DNA of 64,000 bases, taken from the NCBI GenBank assembly GCA_017305715.1, contig JAFKKG010000020.1, forward strand, positions 62,001 to 126,000, in the 5' to 3' direction. This DNA comes from Hyphomicrobiales bacterium (lineage in GTDB: Bacteria; Pseudomonadota; Alphaproteobacteria; Rhizobiales; Xanthobacteraceae). The translations under genes were made by a program, and so were the position numbers. Shown in pieces: positions 6,877-39,406 of this stretch (its first letter is position 1; each line of letters starts with the position of its first letter). The notes under the pieces were generated by a model. The model saw only the letters and a list, made by a program, of their open reading frames with translations. It was not told the origin of the DNA and did no database searches.

Positions 6877-6900
6877 CGGCCCCGAAGCTGGAGAATAGCG

Positions 6901-8147: not shown

Positions 8148-8441
8148 ATGGAGCGCTGCCCGCCGAAATACTGGGAGTCGGTCCTGAAGGATCCCCGCGC
8201 CGGCGCCGACGGCATCCGGATGCGCAACCGAAGGCTTTCGGAGATCCCCCGGCACGTGCTCCGCGTCGCCTGCCGCCGCTGCGACCGGACCGTGGAGATC
8301 CAGACCGCGGACGCGGTCAGACTGTTCGGCGGGAACGCGGTCTGGAAGGACGTCGGACAGCGGCTCCTCGACGATACCTGCCGGCAAAGGACCGGCAGCC
8401 ATGAGGACGACGGGTGCTGGCCGGCGTTCGACGTGCCCTGA
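8148..8441 (+). CDS. Small zinc-ribbon-like hypothetical protein
   Basis: A 97-residue protein starting MERCPPKYWESVLKDP, with RVACRRCDRTVEIQ (CxxC) and later Cys residues near the C-terminus (DDTC, DDGC). The CxxC motif followed by a short helical DAVRLFGG segment is seen in several small island proteins. An upstream ATG at 8039 opens a different frame (MNDRPASWRMPTPKQMEKLA...) that also looks protein-like for about 40 codons before turning Arg-rich. A frameshift near 8140-8150, or an alternative N-terminus, is therefore possible. Function unknown. Confidence 0.5.
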   Translation: MERCPPKYWESVLKDPRAGADGIRMRNRRLSEIPRHVLRVACRRCDRTVEIQTADAVRLFGGNAVWKDVGQRLLDDTCRQRTGSHEDDGCWPAFDVP

Positions 8442-8476
8442 CCTCACACCGAACCGGTCCTCACCTGGATGTCCGG

Positions 8477-8926
8477 ATGGCGCCGAAGCACCACCCCACG
8501 CCCCTGTCGGGCGGCGACCGCAAGGCTCTGGCCAAGGAGCTCGGCAAGGCACGCGCCATGACCGGCATCCTGGCCGCACGATCGGCGGAAATGCGGACGA
8601 AGGGCGAGGCGATGATCCGGCAAGCCGACAGGCTTCTGTGCGAAAGCTGGAACGAGCGGATGTGGAGCGACGGCGAGCCGATCGACTCCTCGCCAACCAT
8701 CGACCAGGCCGTCAACGGCGGCTTTCCCTGGCTGGAAATCCGATGCTCGCGGTGCAAGACGCCGACCGACGTCGATCTCGCCGCCCTCGAACACCCGCCG
8801 ACAACCTTCGTGCACGACCTCGCAAGCCGCCTGCGCTGCCGCAAGTGCGCCAAGTCCGGGCGGCGCCCCTCCGCGACCTTGCTCCAACTTGGTTGGCAGC
8901 CGCGTCACCCTCAAGGGGAGGTCTAG
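8477..8926 (+). CDS. Hypothetical protein with paired CxxC motifs
   Basis: From the ATG at 8477 the protein has 149 residues. The N-terminal half is helical (KALAKELGKARAMTGILAAR). The C-terminal half has IRCSRCKTPTDVDLAALEHP then RLRCRKCAKSGRRP, so two CxxC knuckles about 40 residues apart could hold one zinc ion. I associate this arrangement with small unknown proteins common in rhizobial islands. Frames upstream of 8477 are open, so the start is a choice: 8477 gives a compact protein after the preceding gene. It may be a nucleic-acid-binding accessory factor (inference). Confidence 0.6.
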   Translation: MAPKHHPTPLSGGDRKALAKELGKARAMTGILAARSAEMRTKGEAMIRQADRLLCESWNERMWSDGEPIDSSPTIDQAVNGGFPWLEIRCSRCKTPTDVDLAALEHPPTTFVHDLASRLRCRKCAKSGRRPSATLLQLGWQPRHPQGEV

Positions 8927-8987
8927 GTTGCGGTCCAGGCAGGAATCATCGACCGTCGTTTATTCCAACCATGAACGGACGCCCAAG

Positions 8988-23799: not shown

Positions 23800-24006
23800 A
23801 TGAAACGCGGTTCCCCCAAATCCCCCTCCTCGCGGCAGTCCCATGTCCTGGGCGTGCGAAAATTTGCGGCGATTACCGCCGTCGAGGGACTGAGATTGTC
23901 GCCCGAGGGCAAGAAACGATTGGCTGCGACGAAAGCGGACAAGCTGACCCCGGACCAGCGGCGGGCCGAAGTGATCCGGGCCTATTCCGGCCGCAAAGGG
24001 CGCTAG
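23800..24006 (+). CDS. Fic-associated antitoxin-like protein (VbhA type)
   Basis: A 68-residue protein. The pattern ITAVEGLRLSPEGKKRLAA then KLTPDQRRAEVIRAYSG matches small antitoxins next to Fic toxins: an EGL-x-(P/S)SPE segment followed by a helix ending in R-x-Y-G. The strict inhibitory motif (S/T)xxxE(G/N) is not exact here, because the residue four before Glu is Ile. The stop codon overlaps the GTG start of the fic gene by one base (TAGTG), so the pair is co-translated. A TATGAT box lies at 23788-23793. Expected role: block ATP binding by the Fic toxin. Confidence 0.7.
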   Translation: MKRGSPKSPSSRQSHVLGVRKFAAITAVEGLRLSPEGKKRLAATKADKLTPDQRRAEVIRAYSGRKGR

Positions 24007-24590
24007 TGGCTTTCGAGGGCTATGACGCCTTCGACGATCCGTATCTCTACAAAAATACTCCGGTATTGAAGAATCGCCTCGGGATCCGCGATCCAGGGAC
24101 GCTTGAGGCCTTCGAAGTCGAAATGTCGAGCCTCAGGGCGGATGAGCCGCTTCCGTCTGGGCGTTTCGACGCAGTCCACTACCGCAAGATTCACCGACAC
24201 CTTTTCCAGGACGTCTACCGTTGGGCAGGCAGACACCGAACTGTCCGAATTACGAAGGGAGGCAATCCCTTCTGTTTTCCGGAGCATATAGATTGGCAGA
24301 TGAAGCAGCTATTCGCCCGTCTTGCTCACGGAGAACTGCTGCGCACCCAGGCGTTCGAGGCATTCGCGGCGCGCGCGGCGGAGTTCTTGTCCGAGCTGAA
24401 CGCGATCCATCCCTTTCGTGAGGGAAATGGACGCACCCAATTGGCCTTCCTAGACCACGTTGCGGCCTACGCCGACCATCCGTTGCGCCTGGACCAAGTC
24501 AAGCGCGGCACGTTCCTACCTGCGATGATTGCAAGCTTCGCGGGAGATCTAGGTCCGTTGACCGTCGAACTGACGAAGCTGCAGGCCTGA
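24006..24590 (+). CDS. Fic domain AMPylase toxin
   Basis: A 194-residue protein starting GTG 24006. The Fic core HPFREGNGRTQ matches HPFx(D/E)GNGR, with the catalytic His and the anion-binding GNGR loop. The flap region upstream (VRITKGGNPFCFPEHID) and the N-terminal DAFDDPYLYKNTPVLKNRLG are typical of VbhT/Fic-2-like class I toxins. Such enzymes transfer AMP from ATP to a target such as gyrase. No secretion signal or BID domain, so an intracellular toxin-antitoxin module is the best reading. Confidence 0.9.
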   Translation: MAFEGYDAFDDPYLYKNTPVLKNRLGIRDPGTLEAFEVEMSSLRADEPLPSGRFDAVHYRKIHRHLFQDVYRWAGRHRTVRITKGGNPFCFPEHIDWQMKQLFARLAHGELLRTQAFEAFAARAAEFLSELNAIHPFREGNGRTQLAFLDHVAAYADHPLRLDQVKRGTFLPAMIASFAGDLGPLTVELTKLQA

Positions 24591-24595
24591 ATCGC

Positions 24596-24802
24596 TTATC
24601 GATCGAGAAGCCTCTTGGCCCGTTCGATCCGGTTCTTAAGCCCGTCCTGAAAGCTAGGGTCACGCCGGCGGTTTTCGATGTGCTCGGAGATCGCGGCCCG
24701 AATCACGTCGGAAACGGGGCGATCCTCGACCGTAGCCACGGTTTCGAGCGCCTCGGCCTGATCGGCCGAGAGACGAATAGTCATCGCTTTTGCTGGTTTC
24801 AT
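24596..24802 (-). CDS. Ribbon-helix-helix (CopG-like) antitoxin/regulator
   Basis: A 68-residue protein starting MKPAKAMTIRLSADQAEALE. A beta strand (AMTIRLS) followed by two helices (DQAEALETVATVEDRPVSDV-IRAAI) is the ribbon-helix-helix pattern of MetJ/Arc/CopG proteins. The C-terminal part (RDPSFQDGLKNRIERAKRLL) could bind a partner toxin, but no RelE-like toxin gene is next to it. It is divergent from the ubiquitin-like operon (24885 onward) with only 82 bp between starts, so it may regulate that operon; that is inference. Confidence 0.75.
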   Translation of the reverse strand: MKPAKAMTIRLSADQAEALETVATVEDRPVSDVIRAAISEHIENRRRDPSFQDGLKNRIERAKRLLDR

Positions 24803-24831
24803 GCCCTGATCTTGACACCATTACACCCCTC

Positions 24832-24861
24832 TTGTCAACCAGATTGGTTTCATGGTATCTT
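24832..24861 (+). promoter_or_regulatory. Possible promoter of the ubiquitin-like operon
   Basis: TTGTCA (24832-24837), 18 bp, TATCTT (24856-24861). The octamer TGGTATCT/TGGTATCT is directly repeated across the -10 region, a possible binding site for the divergent RHH protein. It is the only AT-rich promoter-like patch before the seven-gene run. Match to the consensus is moderate. Confidence 0.35.
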
Positions 24862-24884
24862 GGTATCTAACCATGGAGGTAGCT

Positions 24885-25202
24885 ATGACAGACGAACATC
24901 AAGGCGGCGGTGCAGGCGGCGAAAAGCGCGTCGAGATCGAGGAAACCAAGGACCGCGAGGAACACGAAAAGAAGGTCTTCCACCTCAAGATCGATCGCAC
25001 CGCGTACAAGGTTCACCAGCCGACGCTGACCGGCATCCAGCTCCGCAGCCTCGCGACGCCTCCGATCGGAGCGGATCGCGACCTGTTCGAGGTCGTTCCG
25101 GGCGGTTCGGACCGCAAGATTGCGGATACCGAGGTAGTCAAGATGCGCGACGGCCTGCGCTTCTTCACTGCGCCCGCGCAGATCAATCCCGGCCGCGACT
25201 GA
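24885..25202 (+). CDS. Ubiquitin-like modifier (multiubiquitin-family domain, single copy)
   Basis: 105 residues from ATG 24885 behind GGAGG. After a charged, Lys/Glu-rich leader (residues 1-30) comes one ubiquitin-like domain: VFHLKIDRTAYKVHQPTLTG, then IQLRSLATPPIGADRDLFEV, and DTEVVKMRDGLRFFTAPAQI. The order beta strand, strand, helix 'tg.qLr.la', 'dLfev', 'l.dg..ff' fits the prokaryotic multiubiquitin family, usually encoded beside E1/E2/JAB genes. It ends INPGRD, so Gly103 could be exposed after removal of two residues by the JAB domain of the downstream protein. It is the first gene of the operon and the likely conjugated modifier. Confidence 0.8.
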   Translation: MTDEHQGGGAGGEKRVEIEETKDREEHEKKVFHLKIDRTAYKVHQPTLTGIQLRSLATPPIGADRDLFEVVPGGSDRKIADTEVVKMRDGLRFFTAPAQINPGRD

Positions 25203-25214
25203 CAGGCGACGAAA

Positions 25215-25604
25215 ATGCTGCCCCCGATCGACGTCGAATATCTGCAGGCAACCTGCCCGGGCCATTCCTTCTCGAGCGAGGCGGGAATGATGTGCGTGCT
25301 GATGCCCAACTTTCCGCTTCCGCCTGGATTCGACCAGGCCGGGTCGGACCTGCTGCTGCGGCTTTCGCCGGGCTATCCGGATGTCCCGCCGGACATGTGG
25401 TGGTTCGCTCCGGCCGTGCGTCGAACCGACGGCGCCGTCATCGCGGCGACCGAAGTGCGGGAGATGCATTTCGGGAGGGAATGGCAGCGGTGGTCACGCC
25501 ATTTCAGCGCCGGCCAATGGAAATCGGGTATCGATTCGATCGAGAGCTATCTTGCTCTCGTCCGGATGGAACTTCTGGCCGCCGCAGCGCGGAGGGCCGC
25601 ATGA
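25215..25604 (+). CDS. E2/UBC-like protein, prokaryotic E2 family E type
   Basis: A 129-residue protein. Strands 1-4 of a UBC fold read MMCVLMPNFPLPPGFDQAGS, then DLLLRLSPGYPDVPPDMWWF (the YP..PP turn of E2 enzymes, residues about 54-60), then GREWQRWSRHFSAGQWKSGI followed by a C-terminal helix. The pattern 'gyPd..PDm.w....W..rSRH....W..G.D.l..yl' agrees with prokaryotic E2-like proteins next to multiubiquitin genes. Only two Cys occur (14 and 27), both N-terminal to the region where a canonical E2 catalytic Cys sits. Its stop overlaps the JAB-E1 start (ATGA). Confidence 0.8.
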   Translation: MLPPIDVEYLQATCPGHSFSSEAGMMCVLMPNFPLPPGFDQAGSDLLLRLSPGYPDVPPDMWWFAPAVRRTDGAVIAATEVREMHFGREWQRWSRHFSAGQWKSGIDSIESYLALVRMELLAAAARRAA

Positions 25605-26989
25605 CCACGACATTGGTGTTGCCCGGCCAGATAGCCGACGACATCGACCGCGCTGCGCGCGGAAGCGATGAAACCGCCGGCGTCCTGATCGCCCGTGTCG
25701 TGGAAGCGCCGAACGGCGATGTCCGTCTTCTCGCACGCAAAATGATGTGGGTGACGTCCGACGCCTACGTGGTCCGCGAGAGCGATCGGCTGTCGATCGC
25801 CTCGCACGGATACGTGCCGGCCTTGGGCGAGGCCGAACGGCTGCAGGCCGCGGCCTTGTGGTTTCATACCCATCCGGGTCTCGACGGCATACCGCTTCCA
25901 AGCCGATGCGACCTTCGCGTAGACCGCGAAATCGCCGACCTGTTCCGACTTCGGACCGAAAATCCCTATTACGGGACGCTCATCGCCTCTCCGCGCGGTG
26001 GCGACATCGCCTTCTCCGGTACGCTGCAGCCCGAAGACAAACCGCCGATCCCGATCGAGCGGCTATGGCGGGTCGGCGATGCGCTCCGCCTTTCCCGCGG
26101 CTTCGATTCCTCGTCCGCGGCCATATCGCCGATCTTCGACCGCAACGTCCGCGCATTCGGATCGGCCATCCAGGGTGCCTTGGGCGATCTGAAGATCGGC
26201 ATCGTGGGGAGCGGCGGGACCGGTTCGTCGGTCGCCGAACAACTGGTCCGGCTCGGCGTCCGGCACCTCACCCTGATCGACGTCGATACGCTGACGGAAT
26301 CCAACGTCACCCGAGTCTACGGATCGACGCCCGGCGACGTCGGGCGAGCGAAGGTCGACGTCCTGCGCGAACACTTGTCCGGCATCGCCCCCGACCTGGA
26401 ATGCAGGGCGATCGCGGCGATGGTGACGTTGGAAAGAACCGCCCGCGAACTGATCGGCTGCGACGTGATCTTCGGCTGCACCGACGACAACGCCGGGCGG
26501 CTGGTATTGTCGCGATTCGCAACCTACCTGATCGCGCCGGTGATCGATCTGGGCGTCCTCCTAAGTAGCGACGACGGCGGCCGCCTCGTCGGGATCGACG
26601 GGCGGGTAACGGTGCTGACGCCGGGTGCGGCGTGCCTCGTCTGCCGCGATCGAATCGACCTCGCGCGTGCGGCTTCGGAACTGATGACCCCGGAGGAGCG
26701 GAATCGGCTGGCGAACGAAGGTTATGCACCGGCCCTCGGCGGTGTCGAGCCGGCGGTGGTGGCATTCACCACCGCAATCGCGGCGGCCGCCGTCAACGAG
26801 TTGCTCGAGCGCCTCATCGGATACGGTCCGCAGCCCCGGCCGAACGAGGTGCTGCTGCGCTGGCATGAGCGGGAAATCTCCACGAACGTCATGTCTCCGC
26901 GACCGGGTCACTACTGTCATCCGGCGAACGAAAAGCTCGGCCGCGGCGCCGGTGCGCCGTTCCTCGATCAAGTGTGGCCGACACCATGA
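25601..26989 (+). CDS. JAB/JAMM peptidase-E1 (ThiF) fusion
   Basis: 462 residues from ATG 25601. The N-terminal JAMM metalloprotease has Glu in SDETAGVL and the metal motif H89-x-H91-P-x7-P-S101-x2-D104 (FHTHPGLDGIPLPSRCD). The C-terminal E1-like adenylation domain has GSGGTG at 203-208, DVDTLTESNVTRVYG (Asp and Arg), GCTDDNAGR and CLVCRD with Cys345/Cys348 as candidates for the catalytic or zinc Cys. One polypeptide can thus trim the modifier's tail, adenylate its C-terminal Gly and hand it on, and may also remove it. The order JAB-E1 is opposite to E2-E1 fusions of classic CBASS Cap2. It overlaps the DUF6527-type gene by ATGA. Confidence 0.88.
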   Translation: MTTTLVLPGQIADDIDRAARGSDETAGVLIARVVEAPNGDVRLLARKMMWVTSDAYVVRESDRLSIASHGYVPALGEAERLQAAALWFHTHPGLDGIPLPSRCDLRVDREIADLFRLRTENPYYGTLIASPRGGDIAFSGTLQPEDKPPIPIERLWRVGDALRLSRGFDSSSAAISPIFDRNVRAFGSAIQGALGDLKIGIVGSGGTGSSVAEQLVRLGVRHLTLIDVDTLTESNVTRVYGSTPGDVGRAKVDVLREHLSGIAPDLECRAIAAMVTLERTARELIGCDVIFGCTDDNAGRLVLSRFATYLIAPVIDLGVLLSSDDGGRLVGIDGRVTVLTPGAACLVCRDRIDLARAASELMTPEERNRLANEGYAPALGGVEPAVVAFTTAIAAAAVNELLERLIGYGPQPRPNEVLLRWHEREISTNVMSPRPGHYCHPANEKLGRGAGAPFLDQVWPTP

Positions 26990-27327
26990 AGATTTCCTGG
27001 TGGCAATGGTGGCCGTTTCAAAAATGGCGCATCATCGGCAAGGTCGAATCGGCCGACGAAATCCCCGATGCGCTTCCCCGCAACAGCGCCGTGTTGGTAG
27101 GCTCGGCTGCGACGCCCAAGTGGATCGCATTCGACTGTCCATGCAGAACCGGGCATCGCATCATGCTGAATACCGATCGAATCAGGCTGCCTCACTGGCG
27201 GGTGGATCTGTCCGAACCATCCCGCCTGACCCTGTCGCCCAGCGTCGATTTCCGCGGCGACCGGCGACGTTGCCACTATTTCGTGCGTGCCGGAAAAATC
27301 GTTTGGGCGGGAGACAGAGACAGATGA
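26986..27327 (+). CDS. DUF6527-type small zinc protein
   Basis: A 113-residue protein with a Trp-rich start (MKISWWQWWPFQKWR), a metal-site-like FDCPCRTGHRIMLNTD (C51, C53, H57), SRLTLSPSVDF, and RCHYFVRAGKIVWAG (C96, H97). The 'CPC...H..lLN...W.l.....lTLsPS.....C.yfvr.G.i.W' pattern matches the small unnamed partner usually encoded with bacterial ubiquitin-like genes (DUF6527 as I recall). It may be a substrate adaptor or E3-like factor; that is inference. Overlaps both neighbours by ATGA. Confidence 0.7.
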   Translation: MKISWWQWWPFQKWRIIGKVESADEIPDALPRNSAVLVGSAATPKWIAFDCPCRTGHRIMLNTDRIRLPHWRVDLSEPSRLTLSPSVDFRGDRRRCHYFVRAGKIVWAGDRDR

Positions 27328-28244
27328 GCAACGACACGGGCGATGAGCCAATGCCTGCGGCGGTCGCACCGGGGAACGAACCGCCGGCGTCCCCTCCGAG
27401 CAAGACACCGATGTTCACCGCCATGCATGCGCAGCGGTATCAGCGGCAATTGCTCATAAAGCAGTTGGAAGGCGAGACGAAACGCAAGCTCCTCTGCTTC
27501 GTCAGCGGTCACGCCGGACAAGTGAGCCGCGACGACACCGCCGGCTTCGTGGACATGCTGCACAACGTCGCTTCGGGCGAGCCGCTCGACCTGTTGCTTC
27601 ATACGCCCGGCGGCGACATCGATGCGGCGGAAAAGCTGATAACGTTGCTGCGGACGACGGTCGGCGAAGACGGCTCCCTTCGCGTCATCGTCCCCGACTT
27701 CGCCAAGAGCGCCGGAACGCTGATGGCCTTGGGCGCCAATTCCATCGTCATGAGCGACTCCTCGGAATTGGGCACGATCGATCCGCAGATATGGCTCAAG
27801 GACGGCAAGGGCAACGACATCTGCCACTCGGTGCTGAACTACATCGACGCCTACGACGAGCTGGCGGCGGCGCTCCGCAGCAATCCGAACGATCCCGTCG
27901 CCCGCGCGATGTTCGACAAATTCGACCCCACGACGCTGCGCAAGTTCAAGGCGGTTCGCGACCGGGCGCGGACCTTCGCGGAGAACCAGTTGAAGCGGCG
28001 CGGAGCCAACTTCTCGAAGATCGCGAGCGAACTGATGGATACCAGGCAGTTTCCGTCGCACGGTCAAATGATCGGCTGGGAGGCGGCGGAGCGAATCGGC
28101 CTCACCATCGAATACATGCAGCGGACGGACCCGGTGTGGCGGCGCTATTGGGAATTGTACTGCCATCTGAGGCTCGCCGTTTCGAGCTCGGACGATCAGA
28201 AGATATTCGAGTCCTCCTACGTTTCATTGGTCTTCGATAGCTGA
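27324..28244 (+). CDS. ClpP/SppA-fold serine protease (SDH/sah family)
   Basis: 306 residues from ATG 27324, overlapping the DUF6527-type gene. After a Pro-rich, possibly disordered start (1-28), the crotonase/ClpP-like core has LLLHTPGGDIDAAEKL (oxyanion Gly-Gly) and VPDFAKSAGTLMALGANSIV with nucleophile Ser129 in K-S-A-G-T, followed by SDSSELGTIDPQI. This is the SDH-type proteinase pattern related to SppA, without its signal or membrane anchor. No ATPase partner such as ClpX is encoded nearby. Being inside the ubiquitin-like operon, it could cleave conjugates or modified targets; this is inference from context. Confidence 0.85.
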   Translation: MSNDTGDEPMPAAVAPGNEPPASPPSKTPMFTAMHAQRYQRQLLIKQLEGETKRKLLCFVSGHAGQVSRDDTAGFVDMLHNVASGEPLDLLLHTPGGDIDAAEKLITLLRTTVGEDGSLRVIVPDFAKSAGTLMALGANSIVMSDSSELGTIDPQIWLKDGKGNDICHSVLNYIDAYDELAAALRSNPNDPVARAMFDKFDPTTLRKFKAVRDRARTFAENQLKRRGANFSKIASELMDTRQFPSHGQMIGWEAAERIGLTIEYMQRTDPVWRRYWELYCHLRLAVSSSDDQKIFESSYVSLVFDS

Positions 28245-28295
28245 CGGGCGCGGAAAAGCGCCCGCCGCGCAATCGATCCGAAAGGTAGGAGGATC

Positions 28296-30944
28296 ATGGA
28301 ACGACGCGTCATTGTTGTGGAGGGTCCGCTCGCGTTCGGCATTCGGCGGTTCCAAGCTGCGCGCGCGAACGACGTCGGATTGGAGATCCTTACGCTGCCG
28401 CTGCTTGCCGCCCGCCTGGCCGGCGGCTTTCGCCGTTTGGCGGACCGGGAGACGCTCTCGTCTGCTGTCGCAACAGCCCTGCGGGACGGCGGGTTTCAGC
28501 AACTGGACGGCGTCAGGAACCTGCCGGGCATGGTCCGGGCCGCGTTGCGGACGTTGGATCGCGCATGGAGCGCGGACCTGGATCTGGACGCTCTGGCGTC
28601 GGGATCTGCGCGCATTGCCGATCTTGCCTTGCTGCAGCGGAGGGTGACCGAATCCCTGCCGGATGGCGCGATGCTACCCCGCGAGTTGCGTGATGCGGCG
28701 CTGGGGCGCGTTCGCCTCGCTCCCAAGCTGTTCGCTTCCTTGAGACTCGAGAACCTCGTCGATGTCGAGCCGTTGTGGCGGCCTCTTCTAACCACGCTGG
28801 CGGCGCAGTTGGAAGTCTCCTGGGCGGCAGTCGGCGATTCGGACAGACGCTGGTTTCGGGGACGCCTTCTGCTTGCCGAACCGGCTTCACCCCGCGTCGT
28901 GCGCGGCGAGCTATGCGCCGATCCCCGGGCCGAAGTCGTGGAGGCTCTCCGATGGGCGCGCGAGCTGCTCAGTCGCGGCAGCTTGACCGCCTCGGATGTC
29001 GCGATCACCGCGGCCTCCCCATCGGCCTGGGACGAACACATGCTGGTGCTGGCGTCGCAAGCCGGCATTCCGGTTCATTTCTCGCACGGCATTCCCGCGC
29101 TCAGTACCTGGGAAGGGCAGTCGTGCGCGGCCTTGGCGGACGTGCTGGGCAATGGTTTGAGCCAGGAGCGCATCAGACGACTGCTCAGGCATGCGTCGCC
29201 GAGCGCGACGGGCCCGGTTCGCGACGATTGGGCGGCCGGCCTTCCATCGCAGGCGGGACTTTTCACCGTCGACCAATGGCGGCGGGCGCTGCGATCCGCG
29301 CGGGACCACCGCTCCGATCCGGACGCCGCCGAGCGGACGTTGATCCCGATGCTGGAATTGCTGGCCCACGGCCTTCCGAGTGCGGACGACGCCGGCAAGA
29401 TGTTCCTCGGCGGCGCGAGCCTTGGTCTTTGGAAGGATGCGCTTCGGAACGCGCCGCCGGCCGCGGTCGCGCTTTCGCTCGAAAGTCTTCGCATCCGGGA
29501 CGATCGGGATCCGGCGAACAGCGTCGTTTGGTGTCCCGCATCTCATCTCGTCGGTGCGCCCCGTCCGTGGACGCGGTTGCTCGGCGTCGCCGGCAGGACC
29601 TGGCCCCGATCGGACAGCGAGGATCCCCTGCTGCCCGATCACATCCTTTCGCGTCGCAGGCTCATTCCCGTCTCGGTCGCGCAGCGTGACCGGCGGGCCT
29701 TCGAGATCCTGCTTCGACAGCAGTCGGAGGAGATCGTCCTGTCCCGCGGCCAGCGCTCGACGGACGGGCGGCTGCAGGCCAACAGCGCACTCTGGCCGGC
29801 AACGGCCCCGGTCCGCACGAACGCCCGCACGCGAATTCCCGAGCACGCCTTCAGCGAGGCCGACCGGTTGCTTGCGAGGGCGGCGGAAGCGGGAAAGTCC
29901 GCCCGCATCAAGGCGACGTTAACGTGCTGGCGCAATTGGGGCCGGGCTGAGGCCACCCCTCACGACGGCGCGCTGCGCGCACGGCATCCCGCCGTCGACC
30001 GCGCGTTGGCGCGCCTGCATTCCGCGACCTCGTTGAAGCTGATGGTCCGCGATCCGCTAGGGTTCTTGTGGCGGTACGCCCTGGGAATGAGATCCGTCGC
30101 GCTGGCGGAACTGCCGTTGGCGTTGGACGCCCTCACCTTCGGCGAACTGGTCCACGAATTGCTCGGGCGGACGATCGACGCGCTCGAACCCGTTCCCGGA
30201 TTCGTCCGAGCGTCGCGCGACGAGATCGAGCGTGCATTGGCCGGCGCGGTCGATCATGTAGCCGGGCAATGGCCGCTCGAGCGTCCCGTGCCGCCCGCCC
30301 TGTTGTGGAAACATTCACTGGACGAGGCCGCGCGGCGGGCATTGAGAGGACTGACGATCGACGAGAGCTTCGAACCGGACACGACGAGCTGGAGCGAGGT
30401 CGGATTCGGCCTCCCCGTCGCTCCGCAAAGCGCGCGTTCTCCGTGGCCCCTGGAGGGCGAGATCTTCATCGGAACGGAGAAATTGAGGTTGAGCGGACGG
30501 ATCGATCGCGTCGACTTCGCCGCCGGCGGGCGTGCCGTCCGGATCTCCGACTACAAGACCGGCGCCGTCCCACGGCGTCCCGACAAAATCGTGGTGGACC
30601 GGGGAAGGGAGCTGCAACGCGTGCTTTACGCGGCGGCTGTCAGCCAACTCCTTCCGGACGCCGTCAGGATGATCTCCCGCCTGGTCTACCTCGACGGCGT
30701 GTCGCAGCCGTTTGCGCTGAAGCAGGACACGCTTGCCTCCGCCGCCGCCGATGTCGCCGGCTTTCTGGACACGGCCTGCAAGCTGCTCCGTACAGGAAAT
30801 TCATGTCCCGGACCGGACGCCCGAGACCCCTACAACGACCTGCGTCTCGCGCTTCCCGCCGATCTCGATGCCTATCTCGCGCTGAAGGCGAAGGCTTTCG
30901 GCGTCCTGACCCGCGAACTCGATCCGCTGTGGAGCGCACCATGA
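28296..30944 (+). CDS. RecB-family nuclease protein, AddB-like
   Basis: An 882-residue protein with a strong site (TAGGAGG) before ATG 28296. The C-terminal 250 residues hold the RecB-type PD-(D/E)XK nuclease: an early His-containing helix GELVHELLGRTIDAL, then LSGRIDRVDF-x5-RAVRISDYKTG (Asp, Asp-x-Lys) and QRVLYAAAV (Gln-x3-Tyr). The N-terminal 600 residues resemble inactivated helicase lobes of AddB (for example LLGVAGRTWPRSDSEDPLLP, where an SF1 motif would be), without Walker A. No Cys cluster for the AddB iron-sulphur site is evident. It overlaps the helicase gene by ATGA, so the two should form an AddAB-like complex. Confidence 0.8.
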   Translation: MERRVIVVEGPLAFGIRRFQAARANDVGLEILTLPLLAARLAGGFRRLADRETLSSAVATALRDGGFQQLDGVRNLPGMVRAALRTLDRAWSADLDLDALASGSARIADLALLQRRVTESLPDGAMLPRELRDAALGRVRLAPKLFASLRLENLVDVEPLWRPLLTTLAAQLEVSWAAVGDSDRRWFRGRLLLAEPASPRVVRGELCADPRAEVVEALRWARELLSRGSLTASDVAITAASPSAWDEHMLVLASQAGIPVHFSHGIPALSTWEGQSCAALADVLGNGLSQERIRRLLRHASPSATGPVRDDWAAGLPSQAGLFTVDQWRRALRSARDHRSDPDAAERTLIPMLELLAHGLPSADDAGKMFLGGASLGLWKDALRNAPPAAVALSLESLRIRDDRDPANSVVWCPASHLVGAPRPWTRLLGVAGRTWPRSDSEDPLLPDHILSRRRLIPVSVAQRDRRAFEILLRQQSEEIVLSRGQRSTDGRLQANSALWPATAPVRTNARTRIPEHAFSEADRLLARAAEAGKSARIKATLTCWRNWGRAEATPHDGALRARHPAVDRALARLHSATSLKLMVRDPLGFLWRYALGMRSVALAELPLALDALTFGELVHELLGRTIDALEPVPGFVRASRDEIERALAGAVDHVAGQWPLERPVPPALLWKHSLDEAARRALRGLTIDESFEPDTTSWSEVGFGLPVAPQSARSPWPLEGEIFIGTEKLRLSGRIDRVDFAAGGRAVRISDYKTGAVPRRPDKIVVDRGRELQRVLYAAAVSQLLPDAVRMISRLVYLDGVSQPFALKQDTLASAAADVAGFLDTACKLLRTGNSCPGPDARDPYNDLRLALPADLDAYLALKAKAFGVLTRELDPLWSAP

Positions 30945-33900
30945 AGCTGGCGGACGCCGACCAGCGTCGACGGGTGTTGACGGATTTCGACACGACGCTT
31001 CTCGTCGAGGCGGCGGCCGGGACGGGAAAAACCTCCCTGATCGCCGGCCGGGTGGCGATGCTTCTGGCAGGCGGCGCCGCCCCGTCGGAAATCGCGGCCA
31101 TCACGTTCACGGAACTGGCGGCGGGCGAGTTGGCGCTCCGCATCCGTTGGTACGTCGCGAGCCTGCTCGCGGGCGTCGTTCCGGATGTCCTCAAGGCCGC
31201 ACTGCCGGAAGGCTTGAACGCGCAACAGGGAGCAAACCTGGCATCCGCCGCCGAACATCTGGATGAAATCAGCACGTCGACGATCCATGGCTTCTGTCAG
31301 GAGATCATCCGGAGCTACGCGATCGAGACCGCGCTGGATCCCGGATCGCGCGTGATGGACGCGGCGGGCTCCGACGCGATGTTCGAGGCTATTTTCCGGG
31401 CCTGGCTGGTCGACCGCCTGTCCGGCAAGGTCGGAGCCGACGATCCGGTGGTCGTGCTCTCCGAGCACGATCCTCTCAAGGTCGTCGGGCTGGTCAAGAG
31501 CCTCGCGGAGTTGAAGCGGCGTCATCCGAAGGCCGGGACCAGCCGGGCCGATTTCAAGCGCCGCACCGATCTCGACCTGATCGAGGCGGTCGATAGGTTC
31601 GTTCGCTGGTTCGCCGGAAATCCCGACGAACCGCAGACGGCCCGGCTGCTCGACGACCTCGCAACCCTGTCGGCGTTCTACGGCGATTGCTTCAAGACCG
31701 CGCCGACATTCAGGGACTTGTGGAGGCTCGGGCAGCCGCCGCGGGTCAATTCGATGGAAGCGCGAAGCTTCAATCTCGGCTCCTACCGCCGCAAGACGGC
31801 TTGGGTGAAAAAGTACGGGGCCGGCCGCGGCGAGGCGCTCAACCGCGAGGCCGAAAGCCATTTTGCGAACGTGGAGCGGACCTACCGCGAACTGCTCGGT
31901 CACATCGCCGACGGACTTGTCAGCGCGCTCGCGAGCGTGCTTGACGACGTCGTCGCCGCCTACGCCCGGCGGAAGCAGGAAGCCGCCGTGCTGGATTTCG
32001 ACGATCTTCTCGTCATGGCCCACGATCTGGTCTGCAAGCACGAACCGGTCAGAGCCGCACTCGGCCGTCGATTCCTGCACATGTTTGTGGACGAATTCCA
32101 GGACACCGACCGGGTTCAGGCCGCGATCATCTTTTCGATCGCCGCGGAGGCGGCGCCCCGCCGCTGGCAGGAAGCGCGGCTTCGACGCGGTTCGCTCTTC
32201 CTGGTGGGAGATCCGAAGCAAGCCATCTATCGCTTCCGCGGCGCGGACATCCAGGCCTACAACGAGGCGCGCGCGACCATCGCCGCACAAACGGACGGCG
32301 CCGTGGTGGAGATCACCGCCAACTTCCGCTCGCAGGCGCAGATCATCGACCACGTCAATCAATGCTTCGAACCGGTCCTGCAGTCGGAGGGGCAGCCCGG
32401 TTACGTTCGTCTGACGGCGACGCTCGATCGCGCCGAGCACGGCCTTCCATGCGCCGCAAAGGTAACGGTTGCACTCCCCAAAGACCCGTCCGCCGATAGC
32501 CAGCGCGACGAAGAGGCAGTTATCGTCGCGAGGATCTGCCGCAATCTCATCGGCTCGATCGCGGTGAAGCGTACGGACGGATCGGTCACTCCCCTCGTCG
32601 CGGGCGACATCGGATTGCTGGCGCCGACGGGCAAGGACCTGTGGCGGTTTGAAAGGGCGCTTGAGGCCGAGGGCCTGTCCGTTGCCTCGCAGGCGGGAAA
32701 GACGCTGTTCCTCCAGCAGGAAACGCAGGATGTCCTGGCATTGCTGCGCGTGCTCGCCGATGCGCGCGACACCCTCGCCTTCGGAGCGTTGATGAGGGGA
32801 CCGATAGTGGGGCTCACGGACGAGGAACTGCTCGACATCGCAGAACGCATCCACGAAGCCTCCGGGGAGGAACGGCCAGCAACCTTCAACGTTCGAACGC
32901 CGCTAGACCAGATATCCCACCCCGTCGCCAAACCGGTACTTGCGGCCCTGCAGGATCTTCGGCGCCGCGCCGCAAGAACCACGCCGCGCATGCTCCTGTC
33001 GGAAGCGATAGAGCGCCTGCATTTGCGCGTCGTTCTCGCCGCCAGGCACGGCAGCCGCAGTTCACGGGCGCTCGCAAACCTCGATGCCCTGATCGAGATG
33101 GCACGACCTTACAACGTGTCCGGTCTCCGCGCTTTCGTCAGGAATCTGCAATCCGATTGGGAGTCCCGTTCCCAGCGCCCCGAAGGCCGGATCGACGCTT
33201 CGGACGAAGCCGTGGAGATCGTCACGATTCACAGTTCTAAGGGACTGGAATGGCCGGTCGTCATCCCGATCAATACCTCCACCGAATTTCCGCCGCCGCC
33301 GCAATTCATCCATCGTCGATCCGACGACACGCTGCACTGGGTGCTCGGCGGCGTCATGCCGCCCGAGCTTTCGGCGGCCCGCGACGAGGAAAAACGTGAG
33401 CAGACGCTCGAGCGTCAACGCATGTGGTACGTGGCCTGCACCCGCGCCCGCGATCTGCTCGTCATCCCCCACCTGCCCGAGGCTTCGTCGCAATCGTGGT
33501 CGAAGATCCTGAACTTGGGGCATGCATCGCTGCCCGAACTGGACCTTACGGGGCTGCCTGCGTCGACCGCGGTGCGCGCGGCTCAACCGGTCAACGGGCA
33601 GACCGCCGCTGTGTTTGCGGAGGAAGCGCAGAGAATGTCGGCTGCGGCGCCCCCGCTGGATTGGCGACGTCCGAGCTCTCACGACCGGGACCGCACCGAA
33701 ATTCTCGAACCGAGCGCGCGCAGCATCGACGACGCTTTCGAATTCGTGCAGCCGATCGGAGGGGGGCGCATGAGGGGCATCGTGCTGCACAAGCTCATGG
33801 AGGAGTTTCTCACCGGAGAACTGGACGACAGCGTTCCGGATCTGGTCGAGACGCGTGCCGCAACCCTGTTGCGCGAGTTGAAAGGCCTGGAAGGAGTAAC

Positions 33901-34261
33901 CTCGCTACCCGATCCGGATCCTGCGGAGATGGCCCGGACGGCGGCAGGTGCGCTGAAATTCACCGACGTCGCCGCCCTCAGGGAGCATCTCATTCCGGAG
34001 GTGCCTGTCTGGTCGAGTTTGGATGGTGGCAGGTTGATGGCGGGCCGCGCCGACGCGGTGGCTGTGCGGGGGGAAACACTTCTCGCCGTTCTGGATTGGA
34101 AGAGCGACGTATCGCCCAGCCGGGAGGATCGATCCGGCCATATCGCGCAATTGACCGACTACGTTTCAACGATCGGCGCCCCGAAGGGCGCCATCGTCTA
34201 CATGAGCCTCGGCGAAGTGGTTTGGATCGAGCCTGGCCGGGCTAAGCCTCTGCGCGGCTGA
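30941..34261 (+). CDS. AddA/RecB-like UvrD helicase-nuclease
   Basis: 1106 residues from the ATGA-coupled ATG at 30941. SF1 motifs: EAAAGTGKTSLIAGRVAMLL (Walker A), ITFTELAAGELALRIR, STIHGFCQEIIR, VDEFQDTDRVQA, VGDPKQAIYRFRGADI, ANFRSQ, VTIHSSKGLEWPVV and YVACTRARDLL. The C-terminus carries a second RecB-like nuclease: GIVLHKLMEEFL, LMAGRADAVAVRGETLLAVL, DWKSDVSPS (Asp, then D-W-K) and QLTDYVS. It is close to AddA (about 1150-1250 residues). With the previous gene it could make a two-nuclease helicase that degrades DNA ends. It ends the seven-gene operon that begins with the ubiquitin-like modifier. Confidence 0.88.
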   Translation: MKLADADQRRRVLTDFDTTLLVEAAAGTGKTSLIAGRVAMLLAGGAAPSEIAAITFTELAAGELALRIRWYVASLLAGVVPDVLKAALPEGLNAQQGANLASAAEHLDEISTSTIHGFCQEIIRSYAIETALDPGSRVMDAAGSDAMFEAIFRAWLVDRLSGKVGADDPVVVLSEHDPLKVVGLVKSLAELKRRHPKAGTSRADFKRRTDLDLIEAVDRFVRWFAGNPDEPQTARLLDDLATLSAFYGDCFKTAPTFRDLWRLGQPPRVNSMEARSFNLGSYRRKTAWVKKYGAGRGEALNREAESHFANVERTYRELLGHIADGLVSALASVLDDVVAAYARRKQEAAVLDFDDLLVMAHDLVCKHEPVRAALGRRFLHMFVDEFQDTDRVQAAIIFSIAAEAAPRRWQEARLRRGSLFLVGDPKQAIYRFRGADIQAYNEARATIAAQTDGAVVEITANFRSQAQIIDHVNQCFEPVLQSEGQPGYVRLTATLDRAEHGLPCAAKVTVALPKDPSADSQRDEEAVIVARICRNLIGSIAVKRTDGSVTPLVAGDIGLLAPTGKDLWRFERALEAEGLSVASQAGKTLFLQQETQDVLALLRVLADARDTLAFGALMRGPIVGLTDEELLDIAERIHEASGEERPATFNVRTPLDQISHPVAKPVLAALQDLRRRAARTTPRMLLSEAIERLHLRVVLAARHGSRSSRALANLDALIEMARPYNVSGLRAFVRNLQSDWESRSQRPEGRIDASDEAVEIVTIHSSKGLEWPVVIPINTSTEFPPPPQFIHRRSDDTLHWVLGGVMPPELSAARDEEKREQTLERQRMWYVACTRARDLLVIPHLPEASSQSWSKILNLGHASLPELDLTGLPASTAVRAAQPVNGQTAAVFAEEAQRMSAAAPPLDWRRPSSHDRDRTEILEPSARSIDDAFEFVQPIGGGRMRGIVLHKLMEEFLTGELDDSVPDLVETRAATLLRELKGLEGVTSLPDPDPAEMARTAAGALKFTDVAALREHLIPEVPVWSSLDGGRLMAGRADAVAVRGETLLAVLDWKSDVSPSREDRSGHIAQLTDYVSTIGAPKGAIVYMSLGEVVWIEPGRAKPLRG

Positions 34262-36352: not shown

Positions 36353-37879
36353 TCACCCTCCGCCGATGTAAAGGGCTTTGAACTTTTCGTGGTCGCGAAG
36401 CGCGGCCGGTCGATAGGGACCGCCGCCGGCGCATTGAGCGACAGACGGATACGTAAATCTCTGATCCACCGTCGGATGCACCCGCGCCTTATCGTCGATG
36501 GTCCGGATCTTCACTTCCCAATTCCGGCCGGCCAGAAGTTTCCTGAGGAAGGCGGGCAGCTTTTCGGCGTAAGAATCCAGCGTGTCCTGCGTTCCGGCGA
36601 TTTCGCAGTGCTGCACCCCATCCGCCCGCGGATAGAGATACAGCGGCTGTCCGACATCGGCGGTGTTCGGCATCTTGTCCCCGTTGACGAAGATCGGACC
36701 GGTCTTCAGGCCATCCGGCACCTCGGTCGCCTTCTCGGCCATCCAGGCGAGCGCGGCATCCGAAAGCCTGGATTCAGCCTCCGGATAGCTGCCGCCCACG
36801 TCGGAGTGGTTGCCGGCGAACCAAAGCTGCACCAGGTCGGTGCGATCTTCGCTCGCCTCCCGTCCTTGCTTCACGAGCTGTCCCCAGGGCACCCGGTCGA
36901 AATCCTTCCGCGTTTCGTCGATCGCGTTCGCGGACCGGGCGTATCCGACGTGCTTGCTCAAAAGGCGGTCGAAGTTCGCGCCTTTCCATTCGGCAGAGTG
37001 GGTGCTCACGTCGCCCTTGTTGGGGAAGTCACGGATCGTCTTGATGTTTGCCGCCTTCTGCCTTGGCCAGAATACCAGGTTCGCGACGATGCCGGCCCCG
37101 ACGACCAGCAGCCAGAAAGGCCACCAAAATCCGAGCCCCGTCGCCCGATCCACGACGCCGGCTATCGCCAGGGCGGGAATGATCGCGCCGAGCACGGCGG
37201 CTATCGCGACGCCAGCGCCGAGTCCCAGATGGATCAATTGCCGACGCATGCCGGTCGCACCGAGTGCCGCGACCGTGTCGAACACGCCGATGAAGTACGG
37301 TGCCGCGTTGGAGTCGGAGCCATTTCCCGATCCGTACGCGACCTGGAAGCGACGTGCGAGTTCGATGCGCTCCGCTTCGAATTCGGCACGCGGGTGTCCG
37401 GCACCGTGCTCCAGCACCGTGTCGACCGCCTCCCACGCGATGTCCCGCACGGTTTTGCGGAAGCGGATGAGACGGCCCGTCCGCCCTTTCGTCGGAATTC
37501 CGCATAGCATCAGCAGATTTGCAACGCATCGAGCGGTGTATGCGCCCCTGCTGAACCCGAACAGAAATATGCGGTCGCCGGGCTCATAGTGATTGATGAT
37601 GAATTCGTAACAGTCGGCGATGTTTCGCTTGATGCCTTCGCCGGTCACCGATCCGAGCATCTTCTGCGCGAACCGAACGGGCGCGGTCATCGCGGTGGAG
37701 CCGATGTCGGTCCCCAAGCCGGCATCGTAGAAGCTCACTTGCCCATGGGGGTCCATCGCGTTGCCCGGGTGATTCCGCGACGTCCAGTATAGCTTGTAGA
37801 TGTTGCTGATGCGCTGCTCGGGCCTGACGCCGCCGTCCTGGCCGGTGCCGTCGGAGAAGACCACGATATTCTTGGACAT
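36353..37879 (-). CDS. DUF2235 (Tle1-like) alpha/beta hydrolase with two membrane segments
   Basis: 508 residues from ATG 37879 behind GGAGGG. It starts KNIVVFSDGTGQDGG, the usual DUF2235 opening, and has the nucleophile elbow FLFGFSRGAYTAR (Ser110 in G-F-S-R-G). FIGVFDTVAALG and LVQLWFAGNHSDVGGSYPE supply candidate Asp and His. Two hydrophobic segments lie around residues 222-245 and 252-275, inside the protein. DUF2235 enzymes include T6SS phospholipase A1-type effectors. As the last gene after the patatin effector it would be a second membrane-lipid hydrolase of the CBASS locus, or a separately acting gene. 20 bp separate it from the patatin stop. Confidence 0.8.
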   Translation of the reverse strand: MSKNIVVFSDGTGQDGGVRPEQRISNIYKLYWTSRNHPGNAMDPHGQVSFYDAGLGTDIGSTAMTAPVRFAQKMLGSVTGEGIKRNIADCYEFIINHYEPGDRIFLFGFSRGAYTARCVANLLMLCGIPTKGRTGRLIRFRKTVRDIAWEAVDTVLEHGAGHPRAEFEAERIELARRFQVAYGSGNGSDSNAAPYFIGVFDTVAALGATGMRRQLIHLGLGAGVAIAAVLGAIIPALAIAGVVDRATGLGFWWPFWLLVVGAGIVANLVFWPRQKAANIKTIRDFPNKGDVSTHSAEWKGANFDRLLSKHVGYARSANAIDETRKDFDRVPWGQLVKQGREASEDRTDLVQLWFAGNHSDVGGSYPEAESRLSDAALAWMAEKATEVPDGLKTGPIFVNGDKMPNTADVGQPLYLYPRADGVQHCEIAGTQDTLDSYAEKLPAFLRKLLAGRNWEVKIRTIDDKARVHPTVDQRFTYPSVAQCAGGGPYRPAALRDHEKFKALYIGGG

Positions 37880-37899
37880 ATTGCCCTCCGGAAGGCGGT

Positions 37900-38892
37900 T
37901 CAAAGAGTATGGACTGGAGTGAAGGCAGGCGCCGGTCTGTCGAAAAAATGACGTCGTAATTCGGGTAACTGCTCCCGCGCCTCGGCGACTGCGCGGCTCT
38001 TCATTTCGGCGATGCGCGAGGCGTTGTCGAGCGTGTAACGTCCCTCGGGAGCGGTCTGATCGATCCGCCAGATCGCCTTGTGGTCGTGCCCATCGCCCGT
38101 GAGAATCTTCGCGGTGCCGATCGCACTGTGGGATTGGCCGGCCATGAACAGGCGCGTCAGGGAAGTCGCCATCGGCAACTTGCCCCTCCATTTCGGGGGT
38201 GCCTTCACGTCGTTGATGGTGCCGATGCTCAATATCTTCAGGCGGTTGGCAGGCCATCCCAGCATCCCGATCGCCTCGACGGTCGCCGCGCCGATCGGGT
38301 TGTTGGCCCACACCCCGCCATCGACGAGTTCGACGAAGTCGCCGGTCGTATGGGGCTTCAGGAATGTCGGCGCGGCTGCGGTCGCCATCGCCGCATCGAC
38401 CGCGAGCTGCTTGTAGTCGCTCTCGAGTCTGGGATGGTGCGCGGTCTTGTAGATGTAGACGCGCTCGAGCATCGGATTCCATGCCGGGATCAGCAATCGG
38501 TTCCTGCTTTCGCCCATGCGGCGGTCCTTGAGAACGCCGACGAGGGCGGCATGCAGGTTGTCGGACGAGTATTTGGAGCCGACCAGGTGCAGGGCGCCGC
38601 GCCACCGCTGATGAAACCAGGTCCGGACGCGACCATGCTGCTGGTCGAATATCGCCGGGCCCTGCTCTTCATAAAGCTTGAGGATGTCCTGCGCCGAAAC
38701 GCCCATTCCCAGACCGATGGCGATGATGCCGCCGGTCGAGGTGCCGGTGATGAGGTCGAAGTAGGAGCCGATCGGATGATCGAGGTGTTCCTGGAGCCTT
38801 GCGAGAAACGCCGCCGGAAACACGCCGCGGATTCCGCCGCCGTCGAGCGACAGAATTCTGTACGTGGGCGGATCGTGCGAAACCTGGGTCAT
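37900..38892 (-). CDS. capV: Patatin-like phospholipase, CBASS effector (CapV type)
   Basis: 330 residues from ATG 38892. Patatin motifs: DGGGIRG (oxyanion, 17-23), GTSTGG with nucleophile Ser52, and DGGVWANNP with catalytic Asp191. No signal peptide. In CBASS, CapV is activated by the cyclic nucleotide made by the CD-NTase and hydrolyses inner-membrane phospholipids, killing the infected cell. Position directly after the E2 gene (1-bp gap) and in the CD-NTase operon supports this role. Length matches CapV (about 330-360). The nucleotide sensed cannot be read from the sequence. Confidence 0.88.
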   Translation of the reverse strand: MTQVSHDPPTYRILSLDGGGIRGVFPAAFLARLQEHLDHPIGSYFDLITGTSTGGIIAIGLGMGVSAQDILKLYEEQGPAIFDQQHGRVRTWFHQRWRGALHLVGSKYSSDNLHAALVGVLKDRRMGESRNRLLIPAWNPMLERVYIYKTAHHPRLESDYKQLAVDAAMATAAAPTFLKPHTTGDFVELVDGGVWANNPIGAATVEAIGMLGWPANRLKILSIGTINDVKAPPKWRGKLPMATSLTRLFMAGQSHSAIGTAKILTGDGHDHKAIWRIDQTAPEGRYTLDNASRIAEMKSRAVAEAREQLPELRRHFFDRPAPAFTPVHTL

Positions 38893-38893
38893 G

Positions 38894-39406
38894 TCAGACG
38901 ATCCAATCGACTTCCCGCAGACCGTCGGAGCTGGGCGATCCTTCTCTGGCCCTTCGTCGTTTCGACGTGCGCGTCTCGACTTCGGGCGCATCCGGATGCT
39001 CGCCGCCGCCTTTCCACTCGTCTGACGCCAACCATTCTTCGTAGTAGAAGAGCCAGAGAATCGCCCATGGCACGATGGTGGCGTCGATCCGCATCCACGG
39101 CTGCCATTCATACGTCCGCGGCAGATAGAGGCATAGGCGTGGCGGATCCTGTCGATAGACATGAGGCAGGCGCCGCCCCTCGGCGAGCAGCCTAAGGTCG
39201 GGACTTTCGACGAAAACCTCGGGCGTCTCGCCCTCCCGGAATTCGATCCGCAAGCGATAGAACCTGCTCAGCGGAGACGGCGTCACTTCGCAACGCCACA
39301 CGAAAGCTCCGGCATGGAGTTCGCCGAAGCCGGCGCTCAACGGATGCGACTGCAGATTCAGGAACTGCTGGCTGGCCGTAAGTGCCCGGCGGCGACCGAG
39401 GATCAT
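38894..39406 (-). CDS. Stand-alone CBASS E2-like enzyme (type II-short)
   Basis: 170 residues from ATG 39406, which overlaps the CD-NTase stop (TGATG). Key region: LPHVYRQDPPRLCLYLPRTY then EWQPWMRIDATIVPWAILWL and FYYEEWLASDEWKGGGEHP. Cys92 in 'RLCLY' is the expected catalytic Cys, with His82 just before, and the 'tilPWa.eWL..YE.Wl.t..W.GGG.HP' ending is the hallmark of the E2 half of Cap2. There is no E1 domain and no Cap3, which defines type II-short CBASS. There the E2 alone links the CD-NTase C-terminal Gly to targets and raises cyclic nucleotide output. Confidence 0.85.
   Translation of the reverse strand: MILGRRRALTASQQFLNLQSHPLSAGFGELHAGAFVWRCEVTPSPLSRFYRLRIEFREGETPEVFVESPDLRLLAEGRRLPHVYRQDPPRLCLYLPRTYEWQPWMRIDATIVPWAILWLFYYEEWLASDEWKGGGEHPDAPEVETRTSKRRRAREGSPSSDGLREVDWIV

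Follow-up and report, generated by a model that had tools for sequence, protein, structure and literature searches.

Here, we investigated seven consecutive plus-strand genes at positions 24885..34261 of a 64,000-nucleotide stretch of a Hyphomicrobiales genome (contig JAFKKG010000020.1, positions 62,001 to 126,000; "the window" throughout). Genes 1–5 belong to an operon type that is already known, the Bub or Iyer "6e" ubiquitin-like (Ubl) cassette, and an accessory AddAB-like helicase-nuclease pair (genes 6 and 7) is joined to its 3' end. We consider it somewhat probable that the seven genes form one polycistron and act as a composite defence unit of two mobile modules. Functional coupling of the cassette and the pair appears plausible because the link recurs elsewhere, with several cassette kinds. 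The operon is laid out as follows.

24852/24885-25202, plus strand: gene 1, ubiquitin-like modifier, BubA-like (Pfam Multi_ubiq, 4.5e-10)
25215-25604, plus strand: gene 2, E2-like, BubB-like (Pfam Prok-E2_E, 3.6e-32)
25601-26989, plus strand: gene 3, JAB peptidase fused to E1, BubCD-like (Pfam ThiF, 4.7e-36)
26986-27327, plus strand: gene 4, DUF6527 protein (Pfam DUF6527, 3.6e-18)
27324-28244, plus strand: gene 5, SDH-type ClpP-fold serine protease (Pfam SDH_protease, 2.7e-14)
28245-28295, plus strand: 51-bp spacer between genes 5 and 6, without a promoter-like or terminator-like match
28296-30944, plus strand: gene 6, AddB-like, with a C-terminal RecB-family nuclease (Pfam PDDEXK_1, 3.9e-22)
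30941-34261, plus strand: gene 7, AddA-like UvrD helicase with a C-terminal nuclease (Pfam UvrD-helicase, 1.9e-48; PDDEXK_1, 1.3e-6)

An open reading frame (ORF) check found all seven genes open throughout with the boundaries first annotated, and the Pfam domain matches bear out the anatomy that the initial annotation had given them. Its four ATGA overlaps are exact on re-reading the sequence (25601, 26986, 27324, and 30941), and the 51 bp between genes 5 and 6 is the sole larger gap, with 12 bp between genes 1 and 2. The initial annotation had also held that a promoter or terminator at 28245-28295, if it separated transcription, would speak against one system; a motif scan of this spacer found neither kind of match. 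A promoter-like match lies directly before gene 1 (24832-24861), and plus-strand terminator-like matches are located within genes 3–6. Match counts are near those of shuffled sequence (promoter-like, 3 versus 1.4; terminator-like, 6 versus 8.4), so no single match counts as evidence alone. Judged from the layout, genes 1–7 are likely co-transcribed.

Recurrence of the join across AddAB-like loci

We collected 92 AddAB-like loci and dropped 8 near-identical ones to leave 84; L119, at a contig end, is outside this set. The loci were drawn from longer lists as the higher-scoring or longer matches (26 of 36 in a second genus and 34 of 56 in the window's own genus). Cassettes were detected with a Ub-like query set, with Pfam checks on the representatives L196, L207, L220, L225, L229, and L231; those of L203, L216, L221, L242, L245, L246, and others were assigned by similarity to Pfam-checked members. 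L105, which has a weak ThiF match only, was not scored as a cassette, and L219 was scored on weak JAB, weak ThiF, and DUF7665 matches.

Eighteen of the 84 loci (17 without L219) have a Ubl cassette on the 5' side of AddB, at a distance of up to 8.3 kb, and one (L123) has it on the 3' side of AddA, at up to 6.5 kb. The bias toward the 5' side has a one-sided p of 0.0013 by locus, calculated against the real sequence available per side; with nominal flank lengths instead, the two-sided p was 3e-4. Ten of the 18 5'-linked cassettes are on AddB's strand. The cassettes found 5' of AddB take on at least four architectures, listed here with their loci.

Window's Bub-SDH cassette: the window, L188 (the locus of L016), and L191; same strand as AddB
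Multi_ubiq x3, DUF6791-ThiF, and DUF6527: L207, L231, L242, L245, and L246; same strand, last gene within about 0.2 kb of AddB
E1 and a JAB-like gene: L220, same strand, E1 ending about 65 bp before AddB; L219, weaker matches
ThiF/Mov34/multiubiquitin: L091 and L190; divergent, with an Xre-RES pair between
Multi_ubiq/JAB-like/E1-like: L196, L203, L216, and L221; divergent, with an Xre-RES pair between
Prok-E2_C-ThiF and JAB: L225; divergent
JAB-E1: L229; divergent

The Mesorhizobium loci L015 and L016 have the same order and orientation as the window with a spacer of about 0.2 kb, and L191 is arranged likewise, also with about 0.2 kb. In L220, the JAB-like gene stands before E1, with a divergent WYL gene further upstream. 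The DUF6791-type cassettes are preceded by a UvrD-type gene, which in L231 has M78, UvrD, and PDDEXK domains. This operon of UvrD-type helicase, triple multiubiquitin, DUF6791-ThiF, and DUF6527 occurs with or without AddAB (L207, L231, L242, L245, L246, L264, L265, and L266) and is joined by a response regulator in annotated records. Relatives of the DUF6791-type cassette are also found on Acinetobacter and Klebsiella plasmids.

On a quick AddB tree of 82 rows (built without the partial L205 and L241), mapping the presence of a cassette takes 8 state changes, and mapping its presence 5' on AddB's strand takes 6; L215, at a contig end, is outside this count. Two far branches of the tree have loci with the DUF6791 type, and the divergent JAB/E1-RES type is likewise linked to two. 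We had considered the Ubl-linked AddB proteins as one clade based on trees of 35 and 34 rows. This grouping was rejected, as the unlinked L192-L194 and L215 fall within that clade in the larger tree.

The DUF6791-type join is also found on plasmids. A search for its E1 matched 116 plasmid records, and the matching search for AddB matched 62. The comparison covers the best 60 of the 62 AddB and 60 of 1307 GajA records, set against 16 of the 40 E1 records listed among the 116; the other 24 listed rows are from Acinetobacter. The DUF6791-ThiF cassette lies 5' of AddB on the same strand in 11 of the 60 listed AddB records. Ten of these have 0.63-0.66 kb between the matches, with DUF6527 there in the records viewed, and CP104146 has 2.1 kb. 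Several of the 11 are near-copies, and CP033363 and CP051294 are one strain; a Fisher value of 5e-20 for this linkage assumes independent records and ignores both taxonomy and near-copies, and we do not rely on it. Among the E1 matches listed with at least 82% identity, 11 of 14 records have AddB. Of the other three, the Cereibacter record and A. pusense CP097634 contain the DUF6791 cassette but no AddB, and the remaining one is NC_022536. An Acinetobacter plasmid has a DUF6791-type cassette without AddAB. One annotated plasmid row reads response regulator, hypothetical gene, UvrD, multiubiquitin, ThiF, DUF6527, AddB, AddA, DUF6361, and phospholipase D (PLD).

How far the cassette and the pair come apart

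The same neighborhoods could also arise if two independent mobile defence modules adjoin since defence islands collect such genes, with co-transcription incidental and no function shared. We regard this explanation as possible but rather doubtful. Several observations speak for it or weigh against a joint unit, beginning with the cassettes themselves. Our set of 29 other close cassettes consists of 24 genomic ones, found by JAB-E1, and 5 of 7 close plasmid records (H43 and H46 are outside the set). An AddAB pair is present in 2 of the 29, the near-identical L015 and L016, on the 3' side. AddB is absent in 22 of the 24 close genomic cassettes, in all 5 plasmid cassettes viewed, and in all 18 distant cassettes, among which L032 and L035 have a UvrD-like helicase on the 5' side. 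The pairs, in turn, mostly stand by themselves: no Ubl cassette was found at 65 of the 84 AddAB-like loci (64-66 depending on the weak L105 and L219). For L215, the nearest relative of the window's AddB (66% identity in the tree alignment), 2.1 kb of sequence is available and shows no cassette; L192-L194, in the same AddB clade as the window, have none in about 8 kb. Furthermore, a second plus-strand promoter-like match lies at the end of gene 4 (27270-27299), and gene 6 has no PADLOC match.

AddAB pairs also keep other company. A WYL gene lies 5' of the pair in 23 of the 84 loci (L220 and L229 also have a cassette), and GajA lies near the pair in 13 (7 on the 5' side and 6 on the 3' side; L225 also has a cassette). 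The pairs are therefore promiscuous, and they stand beside AbiE, restriction-modification, and transposon genes as well as Gabija. The window itself is an island, with CBASS-like genes at 36353-40599 and an integrase at 41996-43609 beside tRNA-Ser.

What argues against unrelated modules is that the join recurs on AddB branches far from each other and involves four or more cassette architectures, along with its preference for the 5' side, the 10 same-strand junctions among 18, and the lack of cassettes beside Gabija in small controls. None of the own-genus Gabija loci (n=6) has a Ubl cassette or AddAB, and none of the 60 listed GajA plasmid records is among the 16 compared E1 records, with 6 of the 60 having AddB. 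These controls are small and lineage-unmatched: two of the 6 Gabija loci are weak matches, and alpha-proteobacteria account for only 25 of the 60 Gabija plasmid rows. Repeated independent linkage above background may be present, with 8 tree changes and 18 versus 1 by locus, but counted roughly by lineage the 5' bias is weak (8 versus 1, p of 0.08).

Taken together, the modules are not always found as a unit (2 of 29 close cassettes versus 19 of 84 AddAB loci are linked). The initial annotation had suggested one joint seven-gene system, with modification as a possible gate for proteolysis or DNA degradation. The combination does merit a second look and the join does recur, but only 2 of the 29 close cassettes have the pair. 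It had also held that the two would be merely neighbors if the pair occurred mostly without modifier genes. The pair does so, at 65 of 84 loci, yet "merely neighbors" does not follow, as the link recurs with at least four cassette kinds. We therefore retain the composite unit as our preferred reading. Given the WYL, GajA, and Ubl neighbors, we read AddB's 5' side as a possible slot that control or partner modules can occupy, with Ubl cassettes as one kind.

The place taken by AddAB in the window is filled differently in some close cassettes. L004 and L093 have an RNase H-like/SF1-helicase protein there (RNase_H_2 with AAA_11/12), and L002 has a CoiA-like protein. We considered a helicase-nuclease as the fixed last gene of the cassette and discarded this, as the 29 close cassettes include 2 with AddAB, 2 with the RNase H-like/SF1-helicase protein, and 1 with the CoiA-like protein. 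In L110 and L111 (G375), an AddAB pair and a window-type cassette are far apart on one contig, and both have broken-looking genes.

Other arrangements of AddAB-like pairs were observed along the way. Gabija GajA/GajB stand head to head with the pair in L092, L133, and L134 (and in L198, L201, and L202 by cluster), at a distance of about 0.1 kb in the three annotated records L092, L133, and L134. In L138 and L266, the pair is followed by DUF6361 and a phospholipase D family protein, and similar 3' clusters are seen in L100 and others of the L100-L108 group. These AddAB-DUF6361-PLD loci often have a WYL gene on the 5' side and are possibly a larger undescribed system.

The accessory AddAB-like pair (genes 6 and 7)

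In an alignment of 82 rows, gene 6 conserves the nuclease residues H620, D737, D752-Y-K754, Q774, and Y778. Canonical AddB has an iron-sulphur cysteine tetrad around its nuclease. The family of gene 6 does not have this set, as C544 is the sole Cys column at 90% or more of the 82 rows. The two genes score below the cut-offs of the alphas profiles, with 23.5 bits for gene 6 against addB_alphas (cut-off 486.5) and 244.6 bits for gene 7 against addA_alphas (cut-off 860.75). The host's canonical AddB is full-length on another contig and scores 1231.8 bits against addB_alphas; genes 6 and 7 are therefore accessory. An AddA ORF lies beside AddB in 34 of 35 loci, and the 35th (L119) stops at a contig end. 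A PDB sequence search gave no match for gene 6, and its predicted structure (P0006), made with the Mesorhizobium homologue P0013, was unusable with a mean pLDDT of 34.

Within the order, 16 of 397 genomes have a relative of gene 6, with the window's own genome counted (three are weak), as do 8 of 385 of the class and 46 of 195 own-genus genomes. In the second genus, where the Mesorhizobium homologue served as the query, 31 of 146 genomes have one. Sixty-one plasmid records have a gene 6 relative, of which 40 are predicted to be conjugative. These plasmids, and the UvrD and two nuclease domains as in AddAB, would fit an extra recombination-repair enzyme that serves mobile elements, such as in conjugation or element repair, and is unrelated to defence or Ubl conjugation. 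We find such a role very improbable given the patchy presence of the pair (46 of 195 own-genus genomes), the defence genes often nearby, the canonical AddB already in the host, and the lack of AddB-type Fe-S cysteines in gene 6.

The Bub-type cassette (genes 1–5)

Gene 2 matches a PDB chain named Citrobacter BubB (2.5e-9), and gene 3 matches a chain named Citrobacter BubCD over residues 23-412 (5.4e-26). Based on these matches, we assigned genes 1–5 to the Bub, or 6e, kind. The claim of an undescribed system thus fails for this part of the operon. In the same search, gene 5 has weak matches to PH1510 proteases, and genes 1 and 4 have no match.

Visual inspection of gene 3 had picked out a JAB motif (HTHPG...S..D) beyond the Pfam ThiF domain, and the motif is conserved as H89-T-H91-P-G...S101..D104 in an alignment of 30 rows. 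Gene 2 conserves W93-S94-R95-H96 (30 rows). No conserved Cys was found in this alignment, where the best column has Cys in 21 of 30 rows. Gene 4 keeps C-P-C...H, P-S, and C-H (30 rows), and gene 5 keeps A-K-S-A-G-T-L (29 rows). The likely start of gene 1 is at 24885, with GGAGG upstream, and 24852 is the longest reading. The modifier ends in ...INPG-RD, with I-N-P-G kept in at least 93% of 29 rows, followed by a short tail. Trimming this tail could expose the C-terminal Gly of this Multi_ubiq-family modifier.

We counted as close relatives of JAB-E1 the 24 of 42 loci in which the best segment is at least 52% identical, and the other 18 as distant cassettes. Genes 1–4 are together in all 24 close loci and gene 5 in 23; in the exception, L019, gene 5 is on the other side. 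The cassette search gave a single weak partial match in phages, and among viral contigs there were four pattern matches, none related to JAB-E1.

The 5' end of the operon

Upstream of gene 1 are a divergent regulator-like gene and a Fic module.

23800..24006, plus strand: small protein P0011, 68 aa, antitoxin-like by position only, just upstream of Fic
24006..24590, plus strand: Fic-domain protein P0008 (Pfam Fic, 6e-17; PADLOC candidate PDC-S04, 7.3e-66)
24596..24802, minus strand: ribbon-helix-helix (RHH; CopG/DUF6290) protein P0009 (Pfam RHH_1, 1.3e-5; DUF6290, 2.3e-7)
24803..24884, plus strand: promoter and likely operator, with TTGTCA at 24832 and TATCTT ending at 24861

The RHH gene is divergent from the operon, as are its homologues in 26 of the 29 close cassettes, from alpha-proteobacteria to actinobacteria. 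TGGT[AT]TC repeats at 24845, 24853, and 24861 overlap the promoter with an 8-bp period. An RHH match is present in 27 of 30 cassettes, and we examined the RHH-Ubl spacers of these 27. In raw counts, 23 of the 27 have GGTATC, 18 have it in at least 2 copies, 24 have two GGT[AG] exactly 8 bp apart, and 24 have TTGTCA. By their sequence and spacing, the 8-bp repeats look like an RHH operator, and the divergent RHH protein is likely the operon's repressor. The Fic protein has a homologue in 17 of the 29 close cassettes and P0011 in 14, each in either orientation; a Pfam scan of P0011 gave no match.

The regulator also bears on another role for the pair. Rather than being an effector, it could act as a sensor or amplifier, with single-stranded DNA (ssDNA) or fragments from its end resection triggering the regulator of the Ubl operon. 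According to PMC13373217, a reporter under CapK/CapS control is expressed less in E. coli exposed to mitomycin or levofloxacin when recB is deleted, and CapK, from a capK/capS pair taken from a Bub operon, is activated by ssDNA. These results favor a signal-making role, as do the WYL-domain genes 5' of 23 of the 84 AddAB pairs. However, the divergent gene of the window encodes an RHH protein, not CapW, CapH/CapP, or CapK/CapS, and most Bub-SDH cassettes examined have RHH and no AddAB. We consider this role quite unlikely.

Island context of the window

An integrase-like gene (41996-43609) lies beside tRNA-Ser(cga) in the minus-strand segment 41996-43787, which makes it probable that the operon belongs to an integrated island. 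A search of the window for a repeat of the tRNA-Ser end found none. The CBASS-like genes at 36353-40599 (minus strand) encode a SMODS/DncV-like nucleotidyltransferase, a patatin-like phospholipase, and a Tle1-like phospholipase, which places a CD-NTase-like gene about 5 kb from the operon. On the plus strand, a protein with a GmrSD N-terminal domain adjoins a 1115-aa ORF with a NERD domain (50178-55392), and 3512-11051 has an AAA and peptidase M41 protein, an RNase_T exonuclease, and a UvrD helicase.

Proposed mechanism and meaning

In the composite unit that we prefer, the RHH protein would occupy the 8-bp repeats that overlap the promoter, keeping the unit off until a cue such as phage or DNA stress releases it. 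One of the operon's three proteases may then remove the two-residue tail of the modifier and expose ...INPG. The E1 half of gene 3, by homology, would adenylate the modifier and pass it to gene 2. Gene 2 has no conserved cysteine, and transfer is therefore probably via Ser94 as an oxyester. The modifier would next be attached to target proteins, and JAB, DUF6527, or SDH could remove or destroy the conjugates. From their motifs, genes 6 and 7 are predicted to unwind and degrade linear duplex DNA from its ends like AddAB, with an AddB that lacks the Fe-S clamp. In the form to which we commit, the conjugation and nuclease arms would simply act together. In a bolder form, conjugation to AddAB or to an end-protecting protein would set when DNA is cut.

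A wider proposal, which we put forward only tentatively and think rather unlikely, is that AddAB-like pairs are mobile defence effectors with an exchangeable 5' control module (a WYL regulator, an Xre-RES toxin-antitoxin, Gabija head to head, or a Ubl cassette) and that, in Ubl-linked ones, conjugation directly licenses or restrains DNA degradation. If true, bacteria would have a ubiquitin-controlled way of destroying DNA, and the window operon would be the seven-gene Bub version of it. For bacterial ubiquitin-like conjugation systems, a recurrent joined helicase-nuclease partner, whose biochemical activity is predictable, is a candidate target or effector.

Comparison with known systems

AddAB carries out Chi-regulated end resection. 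Like AddAB, genes 6 and 7 are an adjacent gene pair with a UvrD helicase and RecB nuclease in A and a RecB nuclease in B. They differ in their low scores against the alphas profiles, the lack of a conserved Cys set, and their accessory and mobile nature. Among defence-island systems, Bil (BilABCD) and CBASS type II have bacterial Ubl or E1/E2/JAB conjugation, and CBASS type II combines an E1-E2 fusion with a CD-NTase, neither of which is part of the window operon. Neither system is known to have an SDH protease or AddAB.

Bub (bacterial ubiquitination-like) operons were reportedly described by Gong et al. 2025 and by Ye et al. 2026, and transfer in Bub is said to be by oxyester, not thioester (as attributed to Ye et al. 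2026). The conserved Ser94 of gene 2, in a family with no conserved Cys, would be consistent with this chemistry. Our comparison rests on PMC13373217 and PDB chain names. The window operon shares with Bub the Ubl, a separate E2, and the JAB-E1 fusion. PMC13373217 counts 544 Bub operons, states that phage protection by them has not been demonstrated, and names as regulators by the promoter CapW or CapH/CapP (219 of 544) and CapK/CapS (59 of 544), which are not universal. In place of these, the window operon has the RHH gene and the 8-bp promoter repeats. The SDH protease and the 3' AddAB-like pair, which Bub operons are not known to include, may further set it apart.

Type 6e, as set out in Iyer et al. 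2006 (PMC1779556), has Ub-like repeats or a solo Ub, an E2-/RWD-like protein, a JAB-E1 fusion or a domain X in place of JAB, and a metal-binding protein. Genes 1–4 share with it the Ubl, the E2-/RWD-like protein, JAB-E1, and metal-binding protein Y, which is probably DUF6527. The SDH protease and the helicase-nuclease are features of the window operon; when the paper's main text was searched by word, "ClpP," "SDH," "serine protease," "RecB," "helicase," and "nuclease" were all absent.

A literature search on Ubl-AddAB pairing found nothing at the level of paper listings. In sum, the window has an AddAB-like pair attached to a Bub-type operon that an RHH protein likely represses. With its short spacer, likely repressor, and putative operator, the window offers a compact seven-gene version in which co-defence could be separated from control by conjugation gene by gene.

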